The position numbers and the translations under genes were made by a program. From Owenia fusiformis (lineage: Eukaryota; Annelida; Polychaeta; Sabellida; Oweniidae): a stretch of 64,000 nt of DNA. The notes beneath the pieces are model-generated. The model was not told the DNA's origin. It worked only from the letters and a program-made list of their open reading frames with translations, and did not search any database. Below are positions 34,959-58,600 of the stretch, one piece after another. Location: contig CAIIXF020000008.1 of assembly GCA_903813345.2 (NCBI GenBank), forward strand, positions 4,845,341 through 4,909,340, read 5' to 3'. Numbering within the stretch: the stretch's first letter is position 1; each line of letters starts with the position of its first letter.

Positions 34959-35690
34959 TGATCAATTGTTCGAGACCAATAATACACAATTCTAAACCAA
35001 TGCACTCTCTGAGACAATACTATTGCATTATTCGTGATGAATGCGCTGTTCGAGACCAATGTAATATTGGAGACAAAAGTAAAATACCAATCAGATACCA
35101 ATGACCTATTCTATACCAATGTACTATTCGAAACAAATGCACTTGTTGAGACCAATGTACTAGCTGAGACCAATGTACTATTCTATACCACTGCACTATT
35201 CGAAATAAATGCAGTACTTGAGACCAATGTACTATTCGATACCAATGCACTATTCTATTGCACTATTCGAAACAAATGTAGTACTTGAGACCAATTCACT
35301 ATTCAATACCAATGCACTATTTGAGACCGGAATGCACTATATGAGACCAATGTACTATTCTATACCAATGCACTATTCGAAATAAATGCAGTACTTGAAA
35401 CCAATGTATTATTCGATGCCAATTCACTATTTGAGACCGGAATGCACTAGTTGAGACCAATGTTCTATTCTATACCAATGCACTATTCGAAACAAATACA
35501 CTTGTTGAGTCCAATGTACTATTCTATACCAATGCACTATTCGAAATAAATGCAGTACTTGAAACCAATGTATTATTCGATGCCAATTCACTATTTGAGA
35601 CCGGAATGCACTAGTTGAGACCAATGTACTATTCTATACTAATGCACTGTTCGATGCCAATGTTTTATTGAAGACGAATGCATAAGTTGA
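34959..35690. repeat. 18-bp tandem repeat array with variant 20-bp units
   Basis: The unit is close to ACCAATGTACTATTCGAG, repeated with substitutions for about 730 bases. Because 18 is divisible by three, long frames of a six-residue repeat open on both strands; these are not genes. A variant unit with two extra G bases (ACCGGAATGCACTA) recurs at about 35326, 35436 and 35600. The spacings of 110 and 164 correspond to six and nine units plus two bases, so a loose higher-order structure exists. Confidence 0.85.
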
Positions 35691-38379: not shown

Positions 38380-38463
38380 CTGCTTACTGTCTGGACCTTT
38401 AATGTGTTCTAAACGCAATGGCTGCTTACTGTCTGGACCTTTAATGTGTTCTAAACGCAATGG
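38380..38463. repeat. Perfect 42-bp tandem duplication
   Basis: Copies at 38380-38421 and 38422-38463 are identical, beginning CTGCTTACTGTCTGGACC. Identity indicates a recent duplication, or an assembly artefact. Confidence 0.9.
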
Positions 38464-38710
38464 CCACATGGAGTATAATGCAACAAAATCATTGCTTATG
38501 GTGAATACTTGAACACTTTGACAATGGAGAATATTTCTCTTTCAAAACAAAGGACAACATTATTAACAAAAATATCAAAACCTAATAGAGTATCAAAATC
38601 CTTTGGGTCCTAGTAATACACCCCCTTAATAAGTATGGCAACCATGAGTCTCTCTCTGGATCACATGTTAAAGCATGTTTATATTTGGCAATTTAAAAAC
38701 CCATCAAATT

Positions 38711-38773
38711 TGTACATGTTAACTATAGAAGTGTACATGTTAACTATAGAAGTGTACATGTTAACTATAGAAG
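38711..38773. repeat. 21-bp unit, three perfect tandem copies
   Basis: The unit begins TGTACATGTTAACTATAGAA and is repeated three times without change, at 38711, 38732 and 38753. It creates a seven-residue repeat in an open frame that is otherwise meaningless. Each unit contains the palindrome GTTAAC. Confidence 0.9.
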
Positions 38774-38940
38774 TGCTCACATTGGTGAGCTGTTCACAAC
38801 AGAAGTGCTTACTGGAATAAGTCATTTATGAAGACAATGTTTACACTTCATGCACACATAACATAAGAACAAAAGGCTTTCTTCTAAAATCATTATAGGC
38901 AACTAATGAAAACATTTGAACGTTCTTATAAACATATGTT

Positions 38941-41633: not shown

Positions 41634-44600
41634 CTGGAACAAAACAGTATAATATGATAAAATGCAAGTAATATTTACTAAACAAAATACATGGAACTGT
41701 TATTGCTATGCTACACGATTTCAGTCTTTTAACAATCAATGGAATAGAAATTTCAGTCATATTCCATTGTAAATCATTGAATCTCAAGTCTTTATTCCTT
41801 AGATATAACCAAACAAAATAACTATGTAGTAAAACAGCTTTAAAAACATATTTAGAAACACCTGAAGCATATGATCATGTAACAAAAATTATTATTTCCA
41901 AAAGTAAAATAAAATAAACTTTTAGAAAAGTTTTCCGTCTAATGATAGGTCCCAAATCACCTAACAATATTAGTGAATATTTGTCTCATTCGTCTCACAT
42001 AATCAAATCAGTTATGCCATCTTTCAATCAAAAGCAGAACCAAATCCACCAATTTTCTTAAGATAATATAAGGAAAATATGAAACCTTTGTCTTGAATTG
42101 CCACTGCGTGTGAGGTCATCATCACTGTCATATCTGCGTGGATTGTCGAAAAAATAAGCTCTGGGATTGTAAGTTCTGGAGGACATATCATTTAGCGTGG
42201 TCTGTAACAAAAACATATGAAACACATGAGATTTGAGAAGGATGTACCAAACTGATAGGTACATATGTAATGTTTATTTCTTTTTAAGTATGAGCCTGAG
42301 ACCTTACATTCGTTAACTTAAGTAGCACTTGTATCACATATACTATACATGTATATAGCATATACTGGTATGCACAATAATACGCTGTACATATATTTCC
42401 TGCTTCTTAACAAGGAAATTATAATTTTCAAACATGTTAAGCAATTTCCTGTAATTGTCAGTTCATAGGTTATTTTGAACTTTCAGTGGTAAATGAAAAA
42501 CAACTTGACCAAACTTCAAAGAAATATATCAAACATTAAAGGATGACTCTGGGAATGAGTCTGGGTATGGACTAAGAAAATATTGAAAATTGTAATGTCT
42601 GAAAAACCAACTCAATCACACATATTATGAAACTTCAATATCTTATCCTTCCTCTGAGATTACAAAAATATCAATTTGTATCACAATTGATGAAGAATAT
42701 TGGCATCAAAGACAGTGCATATCACTTTGTCAGAATTGAAAAAAATCAATGGCAAATATCAAATGAATTATTTATGCAAAAAGTTTGAAACATATCTTCC
42801 AAAACATTGGTTACTTTCTTTGTATAGACATTGAATGGTATTTCTGGATAAGTGAATTGGTGTTTATCTGGGTAATCAAGGGATTTTAGTCACTCAAAGT
42901 TACTGAGCATCCAGTTTTGAGACTTCAATTGTGTTGGTGATGTTACACATATTTCAGTCCAATTCATGCTGAGCACAACATTTTGGTTTCAATTTTATAA
43001 TCTCTATACATGACTCTGGTGATGAAGAGTCAGAATCAGTCAGAAAACCTAAACCGGAAAACTGTGCTCATTGTGAAAACTAAAAGTGAAGCAACTTTTT
43101 CCCTGATATTTCTTATATCAAATGGCAACCATCTTGTTTTTCCCCCTTCAAATCAAACTGGCGGGAAATTCAAAAATTTGAAAAAAAATTAATCTTTAAA
43201 TATATTTCAAAAATACGATTTTCTTTTTAATTCTTCATTGGTCTTAAGTTATTTCTTCTTTGTATGTCATACATGTTGCCATGGGTGTTTTTTCTTTGAT
43301 AATGACTATTTTTTTGTTTGTTAAGATACTTATTCTGACTCTCAGCAGGGGGTTAACTATGCATCAAAACTCATGAAAAAGTAAATATACTTATCAAATA
43401 TAACCAGGACAGTAATAAAAACCATATTTCACATACATTTGACTGAGGGACCAAAAGGGCATATACCCAGACACATCCTTTAAGACAGAAATAATCAAAG
43501 GTGATAGTAATTGTATGTGGAGCAAATACATGTACAGTCAACATTTCTAGGGATTGTAACTGAAAGATTGTCTGGTATGGATGGTGAAGTGCATGGGCAC
43601 AAGCCCTATAAACCATCTCAAAGAGTGAAAAGCTGTTTTAACCAATCTTGTGCATGGACATGCACTTAGTACAGTTCAAATGTGAATACTTAGAGATACA
43701 GCATATATTATATCATCAAACACATAAGGTGAAATCTACTCGATCTTTAGTTGGTACTAACAGTGTTCACTTTACAAAGGTTTTACTCAATACTCTTTAC
43801 AGTAGATAATTAATATTACTTATCAATCCTGAAAAAACGTTTTGAACACCCTGTGTAATACTGAATGATAAATCCTCACCATTGATTGGGTTGGCCTCTG
43901 CACTCTAAAGAAAGCGATCACAACAAATGTTGGCATCAGTTCCCAAATAAACAGAACAATTCCAAATGTGGCAAAGTTATACCTGTCATCCAGGTTGACA
44001 AAGTCTGCCTGGAAGAACAAAATAAGGACACAATATCATATCATATAGCAGACATGTTTCAAAATGCAAAATAAGATGAGTTAATAATTATAAAATAAAC
44101 ATGTTAGCACAGGTAGAGAACAGCCAGAAATTAATGATATCAAAGTAAGATAGGTGACCAGTTGTGTAATAGACATCAGTGGACATTTAGAATTCAATGC
44201 ACTCGTAAGGTTTAAATCAACATTTCCAAATTGTATGAAAACAGGCTGGAGATTTGACTTATGTTGCAAATTTCTTAACTTATTCGACACCATGATACAA
44301 AATGCTGGGAACAAGTTCAAGTGTAGGTTGAATAAGTGTAAGCATATCTATGTTTTTTATTTTTTATTTATTTCCAATAGTAATATAAGATTTAAAGAAT
44401 ACACTTTCAAGTAGATGACACCGTATTGCACACATATACCAATTATTCTACATCATTAAAATGTTTTATTATATCTTTTATACATCATATTTATTTGTTT
44501 CCCGGCATGGCTTTAATAATTTATACTTTGAGACACTTTGTAACATCAATAATAAAATGTAACTAACAATATGCCATCTTTTAAATATTTTAGCTTGTGA

Positions 44601-47600
44601 TAAGACATACACCCACTAGGGTGTCATTTTCACTGATATGTATATATGTTTATATGATTTTAATAAATAAATAAAAAAAAACAAAAAAAACACAAGGCTT
44701 TAAAATAATACAGGATATGTTTTGGATACAAATGGACACCAGAGGGCGCAAGTTTACCTGGTCGGAGACATTGACCCAATCATATCCAAAGTTGGGCAAA
44801 TTGCAGCTAGGTCCTAGGAAAACGACAATTAGATTATAGATGGCTCTGGAGGTGTAAAGGAGGACTATCAAAACACACGCAACTGAAGCCTGGCATGTTG
44901 TGGTACCCTGGAAAATATGAAAATGTTAATGCATACCACATCAAAACTAAGAAAGCAAAGTAAAATTTAGTTTCAGTCTTGTATTAGTAATTAAACAAAG
45001 ACAGCTGGGATCACAGTCATTTTCATTTGAGAAACTTTTCCAAATTCATCAAACTTCCATTCATTTGCAAGATCAGGCCACATACATTTTGAATATCTGA
45101 CTCTTTTCTGGTGAATTTGGAGGAAACTGTATGTGACTCTAACTTTGAATGTTTCTAAGACGATAGCATTTTTTCTTACATCACCAAAACTATTATTAAT
45201 TGCAACTTTCTAAGCCACTTAAATAACTATTTTACAATAAACTGTAACACGGCCTACCTTTGCCTCCAGTACAAGGTTAGTGGCTGACATTTTAGTCATG
45301 CTATATATACATACAGCTAGAGAAACCCCTGCGACAACAAACAATGAGTCATTGATGACAACTCGGATTTGTATGATTTTGAAGATTGTCATACCCGGAA
45401 CAGAGCGCTGTTCATGGGCAAGTACTGCACTTGTTATGTTAACTGCTAGGAATGTAAGTATTGCAAGGATGATGATGGCTCGTAATGGGCGTCTGGAATA
45501 AAATATTTAATAGAATAATTAATTTGTGAGATGAAGCAATGAATGCTGGGAATAAAAGTATGGCTTGGACTATGATAGCTTGTAATGGTCACCTGTAATA
45601 ATCATTTCACAAGGCTTCTTCTCCAAAGCCAAGGGGCCAATAACAATTTCAAACCTCTCGCAAAGATAATTTTATTGAATATAAAAATATAGCTGAATAA
45701 CATTGTTTTAAGATTGTAAAATATACAAGATGTTAATATAATTTAAAGTAACGCATTCACTTAGTTTATCTTTAATATTATCAATGCAAACACAATGTAG
45801 AGCAAGTAGATCTCCAACTAATCATTGTTGACTTCCTTTTACAACAAAACACTGCAGAACACAATGACATGTTTGAACTTGGAATATTCTAATTGTACTT
45901 ACTTATACTTATGAGGTTCATAATTGTACTTATTGTATTCATGGGGTTCATAATTGTACTTACTTGTATTTATGGGGTTCATAATTGTACTTACTTGTAT
46001 TCATGGGGTTCATAATTGTACTTACTTGTATTAATGGGGTTCATAATTGTACTTATTGTATTTGTGGGGTTCATAATTGTACTTACTTGTATTTATGGGG
46101 TTCATAATTGTACTTACTTGTATTTATGGGGTTCATAATTCTACTTACTTGTATTTATGGGGTTCATATTTTGCCTTTGCTTTAAACACTACCTGAAACA
46201 CATAGAAGGGAAAAGAATTGATGAATTAATGAAACATTCCAAGTATACTATTGTTTAGACTGTATTTTCATATGAATTGAGAGCCAGTTTTGTTGAAAGA
46301 GATGGGAATTTTAATATAAAAACCTGATTTTAAAAGGAATTTAGAATAGAGTGTTATGGGTGTACTAAATAATAAAAATAGATCTTGATTCGCAACATCA
46401 ATATCTGATTTATCTTCTAATTGAATTTATGAAAATCTCATTGAAAGATTTTAACTGCAACAAATGATTCATTTCTTCAATCTGATATTTGAATTTAATA
46501 TCTATTCAGCTTCCTCTCTTCAAAATGGTATTTGGATTGTTGATTTTTAAAAATGCAGATATCCCATGAAATATTTATTAACCACAATACCAAAAGTGTA
46601 CCATGTACTTTTTAAAACATTTCATTTGATAAACCACATTCCACATAAATTCTAAAATAGATATGATGGGAAATTAAATTGAACAACATTTCCTATATAA
46701 TGACACTTAAACATCTTCCCTACATAGTGAAACTTGAAACATATGCCCTACATAGTGACACTTGAATATAATCAACATATACTGACGCTTTAACATATTC
46801 TCCACATACTGACGCTTAAACATATTCCATGCATTCCGTACTCTATACATACTGACACTTTAACATATTCCATGCATACTGACACTTTAACATATTCTAT
46901 GCATTCCATATTCTATACATACTGACACTTTAACATATTCCATACATACTGACACTTTAACATAATCCATACATACTGACACTTTAACATATTCCATACA
47001 TACTGACACTTTAACATATTCCATACATACTGACACTTTAACAAAGTCCATACATACTGACATTTTAACATATTCCATACATACTGACACTTTAACATAA
47101 TCCATACATACTGACACTTTAACATATTCCATACATACTGACACTTTAACATATTCCATACATACTGACACTTTAACATATTCCATACATTCTGACACTT
47201 TAACATATTTCATACATACTGACACTTTAACATATTCCATACATACTGACACTTTAACATATTCCATACATACTGACACTTTATCATATTCCATGCATAC
47301 TGACCCTTAAACATATATTCTATACTGACAATTTTAATACACTCCATATGTAAACAAAAGCACTTGATGCTTAGTCATCTAAAATTAATAATACTGCTGT
47401 GTTATCTATAGGATATATCTAACGGATTCAAAACAGTTAAAACATCACATGATGAATCTAATTTATCACATCACAAGATGAATTAATATTACAAGCTTGG
47501 GAAACATTAGTATAGCACTTATGTTCCTAAGATATATTGTTTGATTGAATGTTAATAAATTAAAGTGCACTGGTTTTCAATTGGAAATTGTATATATCAT

Positions 47601-50600
47601 ATAATAGCATGCATTTAGTATAAATCTTTCTCCAGTTTTCCAGACCATTTAGCCAGCATTAGAAAAAGCTAAAACTCCTACAAGCTATTCAGATTATCTA
47701 TTTAATCAATGTGCACAGTTAAAACTGGTTTATTTGACTGATATTCTTCTTCGGGAGACAATGGGACATGTCCTTGAAATGGCTACTGAATTGTGCGGCT
47801 TGTGCCATTAATGTCTATAACCTGAAAAGACTAATACGTTGATAAAAAACTCAAAATGAGGTTTAAATCAAACATGACATGATTTTTCATATTTGGAATG
47901 TGTAAATGTGTCATTGATCTGTACTGACTACTGAGTGGTAGTTATTTACTCATCTATCCTGATAAGAAAACAGATTCCACATCCTGACATCCTTATATAG
48001 GCAAATAGTATTTGTGATAAATAATATTTTTAGAATTTTTGGTTTTACCAACTACATGTACACTCAAATATTCAGAAATAGTAACTACCGAGCATAAAGG
48101 TAACATCACTTGATAGGGAAGTCATTTGGGAATTTGACCAACTACCAACCTCTCAGTTGAAAATTTGTTTTCACCAGTTATGAGATTGAAAAATAATTAA
48201 AAAGTTATTTTACCATTCTTTTAATCAGCATTAATAAAACTCGATTTTATTTAACCAACCTGTTGAAGATTTAGAAATTCAAGAAAATTTGAGATGCACC
48301 ATTTCGTGCACCATTTAGGACGTGAAAATAATGAAATACAACTTTGCTCTCAAAATTCCTTTGGAAAATCTCCGTGTCATGTATGTATTAATATCCCAAC
48401 AATGAAAGTTATAAGGTTGAATAAATTGGCACTCATTTCAAATTACTATTCCTCCTCATCAAGTTGAGTGAGATTTCTGATCATGTGGTACTACATTAAC
48501 CAATCAAATTACACAGATTCTAGCAATGATATAATAATATTTGTTATCAACTTGAGTGATGATACAGCAAAATGACAGTAAGTGCTTTGATTTAATATAA
48601 TTCAAGAGACAATCACACTACAGCTCCTGTAGAGGTACAACCTGATAAAACCAGGGGAATGTAAACAGAATTGGCCTTCATTTGAGTCAATGTGTTTACA
48701 TTCTGAAATAGTATCTTTTATCTGTTTGTCTCAGTAATATTATTATCTGTATGTATAAAACGGGGTCAACTGACTGACTTACTTGGACTTAAAACCTGGT
48801 CAGAATAATGAAATTGTCATGTATGAGTTTAATTTCAACATGACAAACTGATGAAGGTTCTTGTAGGTTTCCTCATTGTATGCTCCTCAACCTCACATTT
48901 CATAATTAAAGTATCATATCTAGTTTTCATAAAATTTATGATATAGATATTGGGGTATGGTTAATATTTGCACATCCCTCAAATTAACCAATCCTCACAA
49001 ATTCAACTCAGTGATTTGGACTAAATGTACTTAGAAATGCCTGAGTTTTCCAATTTTAAGTACAAATATCAGGCCCGTAGCCAGAATTTTCAAAGGGGGT
49101 TCACTTTTTCCAAAAATTCTAGGGGGGGGGTTCACTTTGGCAAATTTGGCCAAATATCACTCGAAAAATAGGCAGAATGGTGAAAAACTGCATGATTTTG
49201 AAAAAAAATTTGGCCAGGGGGGGGAGTTCGCCCAAACCCCCCGAACCCCCCCCCCCCAGCTAAGGGCCTGAATATCAAAATAATTTTGATCTACTAATGT
49301 CAAAGATTTATATTAACAAACTGCGTAACCTTTTTGGTCTTCACTAAACAACGTGTGCAAGACTTTCATATCAAACAGCAATCATCACAATAATGAACTA
49401 ACATAATCATTAATGTCAACAGGGAGACTATCTGGCAGCGAAAGTTCTTCAAAACTCTTCCATGAGAGTGCAAATGAAATTGAAAGAAAAATTCTATTTG
49501 AGGACTAAAAACTAAAAAAGTAAGAAATTTTTGTTCCGGAACAGAACAGATATGTTGAATATTTGTTATGTGTTCCTACCGAGAGCCTAATGACACGGGT
49601 CTGAACAAAATCGGGTAGCTATCCAGGACACCTCTAATGAATATTGAGTTTACGTGTATGTGCATCCTCCTAAGCAGGTATGCAGAATCCGTACCTCCTT
49701 CTTCCCAGCTATAACCAATTTGGAAGCGCCCGATTAAACTGAATCATGTGATCTAATTATGCGCAATGACTTATACATGATTTCTGTCACAGTGTTGCGA
49801 CAGCCAATCAGATTGTGAGTTCTTAATCAAGGAAATGCTAACTGCTTATCGCAGGGGGTAAAAAGAAAGAATATATTCTGGATTTTGAAGCCCTGTGATC
49901 GGAGAATGATGTATGTGAAACTAATAACAGAAAATAATTTATATCATTCAGAGTCGAGTGTCATATTAATCATTGCCATATAGTATCCTGGAACATGTAT
50001 TTTATTATATATTTTCCTCTACTATCATGCAGGTCCAACGATGCACGTTGAAAAAATGTTGTATGTAATTGAAAGCCCATGAAAATACTAAATTCTTTTT
50101 TAACACATCAAAGTATGCGATAAATGCTCATACATACCTGTGCAAAGAAGAGTACCAGGAGGCAGAGTGTGATGAACTGCAAACATACCGGACAACAATA
50201 TAGCAGCCAGTATGGGAATGTGTCCAAGTTATTCGCAAGGATGCAATTATCAAAATAAAATGAAAACAATGTTACTCTGAGTCCAGCCCATAATAAGCAC
50301 AAAAATAAGAAAACTGTCTGATAACTCAATCGTCTATGTTTGTACCAAAGGATCATCCATAACTGTACATAAACTGCTAAAAACACAAGTCCGTACAAAA
50401 CTGTAAAAACCCACGTCAAACTCAGGTGAGTTTTGGGCGATAACGCAGGAACGAGAGTTGGCTGGACGATTGGAATGGATCCTGGTGTTGCATTGTGTAT
50501 TTCTACCATTCCCTGTGTGATATTCCTATCATTTTCTTCTATAAAAGGCATTATTGTGTTGTTCTTCTTACATTTTGTCAAATCCGGAAGTAAGTTTGTT

Positions 50601-54946: not shown

Positions 54947-55033
54947 ATACACAGAAGTTATCCAATATCCCAAGCGGAGACATATAACACAATATATGAT
55001 CCTGAATCCATATAGCAGAGTAAACGAATAGGC

Positions 55034-55673
55034 ATGGCAGAACACGAGGATGGGACAGATATGGATTCTAAAAGCAATGATAAGAATAAAGGAGCCGACG
55101 ACGAGCTTATTAGTTCAACAGAAGATGCAGAACAAAATGAGATTGACTTAGATAGGGCACTGGATTATATTGAAGATAAAGACAACAGTTCAACAGCGGA
55201 GGAAAGTGCTAAAGAGGCTGGTAGTAGAAATGAGCGGACAGGAGTGGATTCAGTTATTCTACCAAATGAGGAAAATAACGACAAAGAAAATGGTTTGGAT
55301 GTTGAAAGGAATAAGTCAAGTGCATCCGAAGAGATGAAAGAACAAAAGGAAAACGAAGGTGAACTTCAGAGCTCTATAAAAACGACCAACGATAACAAAT
55401 CCATGGAAAAGGAGAAGGACAATGTTATTGATGATAACGTTTCGAATAGAACTGAAGCATCGGACAACATCAGCACCTATACAGAAGAGCAAAAAGTTGA
55501 TTTAGACAAAAATCCTTGTGAAGATGATGTAGATGTCGAAAAAGGATATTTGGAAAAGAGTATTGGGAAAGCGGGAAAAGAAACTCCCAATGCTGGCATG
55601 GATACTGCTGACAAGGAAAAAGAGCCAATACGGTTTTGTAAATTCATCGCAGAGAAACCTTGTGTTGCTTTTG
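55034..55673 (+). CDS. Dispatched-like exon 1 (acidic N terminus)
   Basis: The exon encodes 213 residues plus one base. The composition is strongly Asp/Glu/Lys/Asn/Ser and probably disordered, with no motif I recognise before FIAEKPCVAF, where the first membrane segment begins. The donor TTTTG|GTGAGTT is strong. Reading through it gives 14 further codons to a TAG. Confidence 0.85.
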
Positions 55674-58600
55674 GTGAGTTAACTATTTGTACATGTCTAC
55701 CCGAAGATATGGGCTAGTTGAACTTATTGATCATATCATTTAAGTGTGATTTATTGATAATAGTTTTACCCTTTAACTTATCTAATTTCAGGAATCGCTC
55801 TCGGAGGACATATTCTATTGACACTGGTAACTGGTATCTTATTTGTATCGGGGTATGACATCCTACCTACCAATTTCAAAGCGGTGCCTCTTGATCTCAC
55901 AAACGATGACCACTTTCTCCGCGGAGAAGCTTGGAACAACAAGGATGATGATCCAACCATTCATTCCAAACTCGTCAGTGGTACAGTGCTCCAAAAACAA
56001 GCGTTCAAGTATCAAGCAATAGAACTGATGTATGAAATTCCCAATGGGAACGTTTTCACGAAAGCCACTTTAGAAAAAATAGCGGAGGTTGAGCAATCTA
56101 TTTTTGACCTACCTAACTTTGGGGATTATTGTTTGGCTGCATCAGACGGTAGTTGCAAAAAGGCATCATCTATCATTCGCTTCTTTGATGGGAGTTACAG
56201 CGCACTAAGTGTCAGCCTTAATGATCCTACCTTTGAGAATATCCCGGCAGCGTTGAACTTTGCAAATACAAGCGACCACACTAAATCAGGGCTGCAATAC
56301 CATCTCGGCAAAGAGGCAAATGTGGACATAGCGACAAATGCAGCATCTTCAGCCATTACGCGTTCTGTTATTTACCTAGGTTGGCCACTTGATGGCTATG
56401 ACAACTTCGAAGATCGCCAAACTGAACAGACAGACAAAATCGAGAATTTTCTTATGGACACAGTGCGAGCCAAGCTCTACGAACTGATCGATACGGGAGT
56501 TGGTGATGCGGACTTTATATTCAATTGTAGAATTCTTTATACCGAAGACTTGAATTCCCAAGTGATCCTGGATATGATGTTGGCTGGTGGAAGTTTCACG
56601 TTCATCTTCGGCTTCATGTGCTTTCAGACCAAATCTTTGTTCATAAGTGGATTTGCTATAATGAGCATCCTCACCAGTTTCCTTGGCGCAAACATGATTT
56701 ATAGGATCGTTCTTGACTACGCGTATTTCGGAATTTTCCACGTTCTCTCCGTTTTCATCATCCTTGGTATAGGAGCGGATGATATATTCGTGTTTTACGA
56801 CACGTGGCGTGCAAGTGAACTGGGCAATTATCCAACACTTGCCCACCGACTATCGGACTGCTATAAAAAAGCCGCAAAGGCCATGTTCATAACATCACTA
56901 ACTACAATGTGCGCATTTTTTGCAAGTGCCTTATCACCTCTGCTTGCAGTTTCCTCATTTGGTCTATTTTCTGGGATATTAGTATTTGTTAATTACTGTA
57001 GCGTAGTCATATTTTTCCCAACGGTTGTGGCTGTTTACCATGTTAAATATGAACACTGGACTTGGCCATGCTGCAGGCCATGTACGAGCGCGAAGATTAC
57101 ACCCTCAGAGAGCAAGAAAAATCTCGTAGAGGAAATTAAAACCAAAAACATTATTGTAACATTCTTTGAGGAGAAGTACTTCAGATTCGTTACACATAAA
57201 ATCATACGATGGGTGATAATGGTTTTCTTCACTGGCCTGTTAGGGTTCTTCATTTACTATGCAACACTGCTGAAACCAGACGAAGAATCGGTAAGATATC
57301 TTATCCCTAAGACCATACTCTACCAGAGGTCCGTGAATACAGTTATAAAATGTACTGAAACAAAGTTCCTTTCTTTCACCAACTCTCGTATCGATCGCGA
57401 TGAGTATGTCCATCTTTCACCCATCTTTATCTTTATCAGCTTTATATGTGAGAGAGGGATTGATGGGTCTCTGTTCTCAGTCACTGGGATTGCTTTTTCC
57501 TTCCTGTTGAAATGATGTGAACATGGGGACTGACTGCTTGTTCTGTTGTTGTGTATTCTTGTTCGGTCAACCCATTCTGCTATTCTCTGTGGCACTTTGT
57601 CATTCTGCCATTTGTACCGGTGTAAAAGGGTAGGAGGTCCTATCAAAATATGGTCCTTCTCTTCATTGATTTATATGGTGACCTCTTTCCCTTATTATCT
57701 TATACATAATCAGGGCCAGAAAGGGCTGTTAAGAAAGGGGACCATAATCCTGGGGGACCATAATTTCTTTCACACCGGCCATCACCGAGTGCTATCTGGC
57801 AACTCCTCAAGATGTGGGTAAGGGTACATTTGGGGTTAGTATTAAGTCTATTGTCTCGAGAAATGCTTCTTGGATTGCTACAAGGATTTCTCCCTCCGAG
57901 GTAACTGCTCGTGGCTTGATCAGTAAGTAATTGCGTTGAAAAACATGTATATTGTTACTAAGAGGATGGTGCATCAAAGCACCCTAGTAGCCCAATGGAA
58001 AGCAACTGTATGTCATTTGAAGATGCATGATAAGCCAATCTAGTTTTACATTAAAATGCAAGGAGTAATTATCAAGATTAAAAAGTGCGTACATCTAAGC
58101 CCCGATCAAGATATGTAACGTGTTATGCCGCCAATTGTAATTGTATCCTATCTATATCGAGATTGGGATTGGGGCTGCACAAAAATAAAATTTAAATATT
58201 ACCTTTTACTTCATCAATATGATGAACCATTTGCGCCATTTTGGAAACTACATTCATCGGAACGGTCACCCAACTGGTTATGGATTAGCGCTAATGGATT
58301 TATTCAATCAATAACGTATATTGAATCGTTTCAATTGTGTATATTATCGAAGAATGTGTATGTAATCTATGCAATTACATTGCCATTGTTTTAAAAGGAT
58401 TCTACAACAGTATGTAAACACTATACAGCGAAACCTGTGTATATTGAACATTTTTTGAAAAAAATGTTCAGTGTTGGTAGGTGTTCACTTCAGAGAGGGT
58501 AATCTATACATACGAGGGGTGATCCAAAAGTCTTGGACGCCCCGCTCTAACTTTGCTATTTTTTTAACAAAATTACATGAGACTTTCAGATAATAAAGAT

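Follow-up and report, generated by a model that had tools for sequence, protein, structure and literature searches.

The choice that the spliceosome makes among equal 5' splice sites has mostly been studied with engineered constructs. The 64-kb window studied here (the term refers to the whole stretch of DNA that was analyzed) raises the same question in a natural setting: is the array of donors at the end of exon 2 of a GPR137-like gene a device that acts on this gene, or a passenger that the gene tolerates? The donors and the 31 bp around each of them are nearly the same, and what sets them apart is mainly their position, which makes them a natural test of the position rule; the right choice would yield the protein, and every wrong choice would lead to the same stop. 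The donor array itself is a real feature of ordinary origin and unusual placement. The coordinates of the array and of the gene are presented in Table 1.

Table 1 Donor array, exons and related features of the GPR137-like gene (positions within the window)
Feature	Position	Strand	Details
Exon 1	50138..50551	-	Start placed at the ATG at 50551; residues 1-138
Exon 2	46149..46192	-	44 nt; phase 0 entry, end two bases into a lysine codon; 15 residues with the first base of exon 3; placed by acceptor, donor and frame
Authentic donor 1, first intron base	46148	-	CAA/GTAAGT; only frame-keeping donor among the 7
Minisatellite, 9 units (31/30 nt)	45891..46167	-	GTAAGT intact in 7 units and broken in 2
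Six spare donors, first intron bases 46117, 46086, 46025, 45994, 45963, 45902	45902..46117	-	Each leads to KYK-stop
Decayed copy spanning the acceptor and the first 49 nt of exon 3	45544..45601	-	44/58 identical, ungapped
Exon 3	45258..45492	-	Joined-frame model
Exon 4	44758..44907	-	Joined-frame model
Exon 5	43880..44008	-	Joined-frame model
Probable exon 6, joining exon 5 in frame	42086..42201	-	3' end tentative

Structure of the donor array

According to the initial annotation, the array consists of nine units, each of which joins the end of exon 2 (19 nt) to the start of intron 2 (12 nt) and so copies the 5' splice site, and it carries eight extra donors, six intact and two broken. Our analysis bears out all of these points. 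When the minus strand is split at ATGAAC, seven of the resulting nine units are 31 nt long and the other two 30 nt, and Tandem Repeats Finder (TRF) reports a period of 31 bp at 45890-46168 (9.1 copies, 94% matches, score 488). The nine head-to-tail units of 30-31 bp, with a total length of 277 bp, correspond to the definition of a minisatellite (head-to-tail units of ~10-100 bp). Minisatellites commonly, although not always, vary in length among individuals. The sequence AA/GTAAGT (the slash marks the exon-intron junction) is kept in seven of the nine units (1, 2, 3, 5, 6, 7 and 9), the authentic donor included, so that the intact extra donors are those of units 2, 3, 5, 6, 7 and 9; in both 30-nt units, 4 and 8, the first G of GTAAGT has been lost. 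Adjacent intact donors are spaced by 31 or 61 nt.

The 31-nt consensus, searched for with up to three mismatches, was matched 7 times in the window, always within the array (mean of 0.00 in 100 shuffles); the search was ungapped, and the two 30-nt units were therefore not matched. The unit was not found outside the array in the 64-kb window, and its 26-base form had 0 matches in viral contigs. The motif MAAGTAAGTA occurs six times in the window, compared with 0.50 expected occurrences, and all six matches read CAAGTAAGTA and lie within the array. The hexamer GTAAGT itself is common in the window (14 occurrences on the plus strand and 16 on the minus strand), the array contributing 7. A search of the whole window against Rfam at the gathering threshold gave 0 matches.

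Could the array be partly or wholly an artifact of the assembly? Tandem arrays are prone to misassembly, and since units 2, 3 and 7 are identical to the consensus and to one another, the number of units could be wrong. However, the array is short, and units 1, 4, 5, 6, 8 and 9 are all distinct from one another. Relative to the consensus, a single base differs in unit 1 (intron part) and in each of units 5 and 6 (exon part); units 4 and 8 each have one differing base on top of the missing G, and unit 9 has three. We therefore consider it highly unlikely that the array is such an artifact or that the gene is not expressed with exon 2; the latter possibility is also opposed by the place of exon 2 in the gene model, where it brings exons 1 and 3 into one frame and occupies the region that separates hydrophobic peaks 3 and 4.

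Gene model and predicted consequences of donor choice

The end of exon 2 at 46149 is predicted from the frame and the splice signals. Exon 2, which contains the exon part of array unit 1, is bordered by the acceptor TTCCCTTCTATGTGTTTCAG and the donor CAA/GTAAGT, and the frame is open when it is joined with exons 1 and 3. The five joined exons give 324 codons with no stop, with AG and GT at the internal boundaries, and the probable exon 6 continues the frame; the 3' end of the latter is tentative because its donor, AAG/GTTTCA, is off consensus. In the five-exon model, 12 hydropathy maxima form seven groups when overlapping maxima are grouped manually, the first three groups spanning residues 50-140. 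The predicted protein contains motifs such as FAQVVFKAK that we take to be characteristic of the GPR137 family, and the GPR137 label, which rests on these motifs, is plausible. Searches returned 0 Pfam families at E values up to 1 and 0 matches in the Protein Data Bank at E values up to 10. No relatives of the exon 1 protein were confirmed among 96 genome-contig and 37 viral-contig pattern stretches, collections that are ill suited to animal genes. The plus strand of the window carries other open frames as well: those at 55016-57515 are long (233 and 583 aa) and look like a Patched/sterol-sensing-domain membrane protein (GADDIFVFYDTW), and the one at 49035-49271, with ARIFKGG...ILGGG, resembles translations of a dispersed repeat of invertebrate genomes.

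What would the use of a donor other than the first mean for the message? The claim that any downstream donor places TAA in frame held for all six spares, each of which gives ...KYEPHKYK-TAA and a product of 153 residues with three hydrophobic segments. When donor 1 is joined to the decayed acceptor copy in intron 2, TGA is the first full codon past the split lysine codon, which results in the same stop as from the spares. All seven alternative exon 2 joins tested (six spares and the decayed acceptor) thus cut the protein short after its third hydrophobic segment, and skipping of exon 2 leads to a frameshift and a stop after 155 residues. Among the joins tested, the longer protein results only when donor 1 is paired with the acceptor of exon 3.

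Alternative choices that create an early stop with exon junctions downstream are a feature of poison-exon, or unproductive-splicing, control, and the GPR137-like alternatives are alike in this respect: they share one early stop, and exon junctions follow it. With five of the six spares, 58-242 nt separate the stop from the exon 2-3 junction downstream of it, which is beyond the ~50 nt that characterize unproductive splicing; with the first spare, the distance is 27 nt. More junctions follow. A shift from donor 1 to the spares could in this way lower GPR137-like output via nonsense-mediated decay, with array length as the set point. The decayed acceptor copy, which would feed donor 1 into the same stop, is consistent with such regulation, as is the ESRP1 dependence of mouse Gpr137 isoforms, which include a short form with five predicted membrane segments (PMC5665647). 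However, two of the eight spare donors are already broken, as would be expected in an unprotected array, and the differences among units, which number 7 in the 19 exon-derived columns and 3 in the 12 intron-derived columns, give no indication that the donor part is protected and are too few for a test. The GPR137-like units also differ from poison-exon systems in having arisen by tandem copying, and regulation is putative here; on balance, regulated unproductive splicing appears unlikely.

The explanation that we favor, with moderate confidence, is that the array is mostly a passenger minisatellite, tolerated rather than selected, with some leakage into nonsense transcripts. U1 snRNP would be able to bind any of the seven donors, and donor 1 would be used often enough for the gene to keep working. 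A fraction of the transcripts would take a spare donor and end in KYEPHKYK-stop; these transcripts would be removed by nonsense-mediated decay or would be translated into a stub of three membrane segments.

Possible competition among near-equal donors

The initial annotation had also suggested that the array might act as donor decoys, tune a nonsense-mediated-decay isoform or be neutral because the first donor wins. The last of these proposals needs to be amended in one part: the 9-mer gives donor 1 no edge, since CAA/GTAAGT is common to donor 1 and five of the six spares (matrix score of 5.56), and only the last spare, TAA/GTAAGT, scores lower (3.97). Among the six donors with the same 9-mer, five are identical from -3 to +8. 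The energies of the U1 duplex are similarly close: -7.2 kcal/mol with donor 1, compared with -7.0 kcal/mol with each of the six spares. This scoring used a donor frequency table and the U1 sequence. The GT dinucleotides of exon 2 and intron 2 outside the array include none with a matrix score above 5. Judging from these scores, sequence strength hardly favors donor 1.

All seven array donors pair more weakly with U1 than the other four donors of the gene that were examined (-8.3 to -10.2 kcal/mol), and donor 1 lacks the G at -1. This weakness brings forward another possible role for the array, namely, that a cluster of donors aids the recognition of exon 2, with the extra U1 sites defining the exon and donor 1 providing the cut. 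Exon 2 is far shorter (44 nt) than exons 1, 3, 4 and 5 (414 nt from the ATG, 235, 150 and 129 nt, respectively), and skipping it would shift the frame as described above. On the other hand, the pyrimidine tract of its acceptor is good (13/16), and donor 1 ranks second by matrix among the five authentic donors examined; help with exon definition may therefore be superfluous. Moreover, U1 bound at the spare donors would compete for the cut as well. We regard such a role of the array as rather unlikely.

RNA folding was also considered. In six of the seven folding windows, the predicted openness of donor 1 (0.22-0.39) was lower than that of the spares (0.50-0.70), and in the seventh, all donors were alike (0.64-0.69); the lower predicted openness is weak evidence against donor 1. 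It is partly due to predicted pairing of donor 1 with 45801-45807, with a probability of 0.42-0.48 in one window, based on a single sequence with no covariation. The fold of exon 2 plus the array was no better than that of shuffled sequences (z of -0.79, equaled by 24 of 100 shuffles) and therefore gives no sign of a built structure. With a shuffle-like fold and single-sequence pairing lacking covariation, RNA structure was dropped as a basis of donor choice.

Since the donors are near-equal in sequence, the choice among them must depend on where they lie, on exon signals beyond the 31-bp unit or on the timing of transcription. When equal donors are duplicated in vitro, the one nearest to the acceptor (intron-proximal) is often favored. 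Our literature search did not confirm an intron-proximal preference among equal donors. If such a rule held for the GPR137-like gene, the spares would be the default and the array would be harmful, and its persistence could then point to a mechanism or to selection.

Where 5' splice sites are known to compete, the outcome depends on SR proteins and on their position (PMC5585400). The same source describes competing 5' splice sites 11 nt apart and of unlike strength in DOK7 intron 4, one of which yields a frame-shifted, truncated product without the tested activity. The GPR137-like array is similar in that 5' splice sites at one exon end would compete for U1 and some would yield a truncated protein, but it would offer seven near-equal sites, each in copied 31-bp surroundings, instead of two unequal ones.

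To what extent is the supply of donors by a minisatellite known from other genes? Human IFI6 (6-16) has a minisatellite with a 12-nt unit that keeps the frame, unlike the GPR137-like unit of 31 nt with its in-frame stop, owing to which spare donors would truncate the protein. The IFI6 minisatellite supplies multiple splice donors (Turri et al. 1995, as cited in PMC4526556, PMC2572611, PMC2915984 and PMC3618361), and two downstream repeat units serve as splice donor sites, giving rise to three mRNA species (PMC4526556). In both genes, minisatellite units supply 5' splice sites, beginning at an exon end; here, seven of the nine units hold the donor consensus, and that of unit 1 is the predicted donor of exon 2. 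If its spare donors are used, the GPR137-like array would, by analogy, work as an array of the IFI6 kind. A second donor-supplying minisatellite was not found in our literature search, which is weak evidence given the limits of the search terms and the scope of open-licence papers. In the portion of an earthworm paper that was examined (PMC12783039), intron minisatellites are described, and no donor array is mentioned.

Origin of the array and copies of both borders of intron 2

The array would have originated by duplication of a 31-bp segment spanning the boundary between exon 2 and intron 2, followed by expansion through ordinary minisatellite turnover. The exon part of unit 1 is equal to the consensus, as expected if this unit is constrained by coding or is the source unit. 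Of the three periods reported by TRF, that of 123 bp has the highest score (502 versus 488 and 488). Together with the loss of G common to units 4 and 8, this top-scoring period suggests copying of a four-unit block, and the growth of the array probably included block copying of several units.

The opposite end of intron 2 provided a feature absent from the earlier account, a degraded copy of the acceptor. It lies 100 bp upstream of the original (45501-45444), and its local alignment score of 30 exceeds the maxima of shuffled sequences (22 for 1000 mononucleotide shuffles and 16 for 300 dinucleotide shuffles of 1 kb). Identity in the flanks is no higher than 9/20 on either side. Translated in the frame that follows donor 1, the copy matches exon 3 at 11 of 17 residues. 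Its pyrimidine tract is poorer (8/16) than those of the five real acceptors (10-14/16), and with TGA as the first full codon, the copy was rejected as a live alternative exon.

When the eight exon boundaries were compared with their 1-kb neighborhoods, just two of them, the donor of exon 2 and the acceptor of exon 3, scored above every one of the 300 shuffles; no copies stood out at the other six exon ends, where between 24 and 291 of the 300 shuffles scored at least as high. A repeat search (seed 8, length 18) recovered the donor array and not the exon 3 copy, the longest exact run of which is shorter than the seed. Copies of both borders have thus been added to intron 2; they were probably gained at different times, the acceptor copy being far more diverged than the donor units.

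The two copies could be imagined to act jointly as a dosage rheostat, with the number of intact spares setting the share of the nonsense isoform and the acceptor copy feeding the same stop. We consider this quite improbable; if it were true, changes in array length would tune GPR137-like output between individuals. More generally, minisatellite expansion at an exon edge is a route by which a gene may be burdened or tuned.

How unusual is the placement of the array, given the repeats around it? Six selected tandem arrays, including the donor array, occupy 1718 bp, or 2.7% of the window, and it is not improbable that in such a repeat-bearing genome, an array straddles an exon edge by chance. The more interesting part is that the array persists although the frame of the gene is intact. 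A 632-bp array of 27-bp units is located at 46685-47316 in intron 1, 493 bp upstream of exon 2 (TRF: 27 bp x 15.2 at 46907-47316; 54 bp x 12.1 for the whole array), and an 18-bp based tandem array with higher-order periods of 110 and 164 bp is located at 35094-35663, beyond the last exon found. Neither of them overlaps a modelled exon of the gene. Intron 2 also contains an inverted repeat (45662-45680 / 45755-45773) with 19-nt arms that are 79% complementary and 74 nt apart, which may be due to chance. Two perfect tandem repeats, at 38380-38464 (42 bp x 2.0) and 38711-38775 (21 bp x 3.1), are probably recent because their copies match at 100%.
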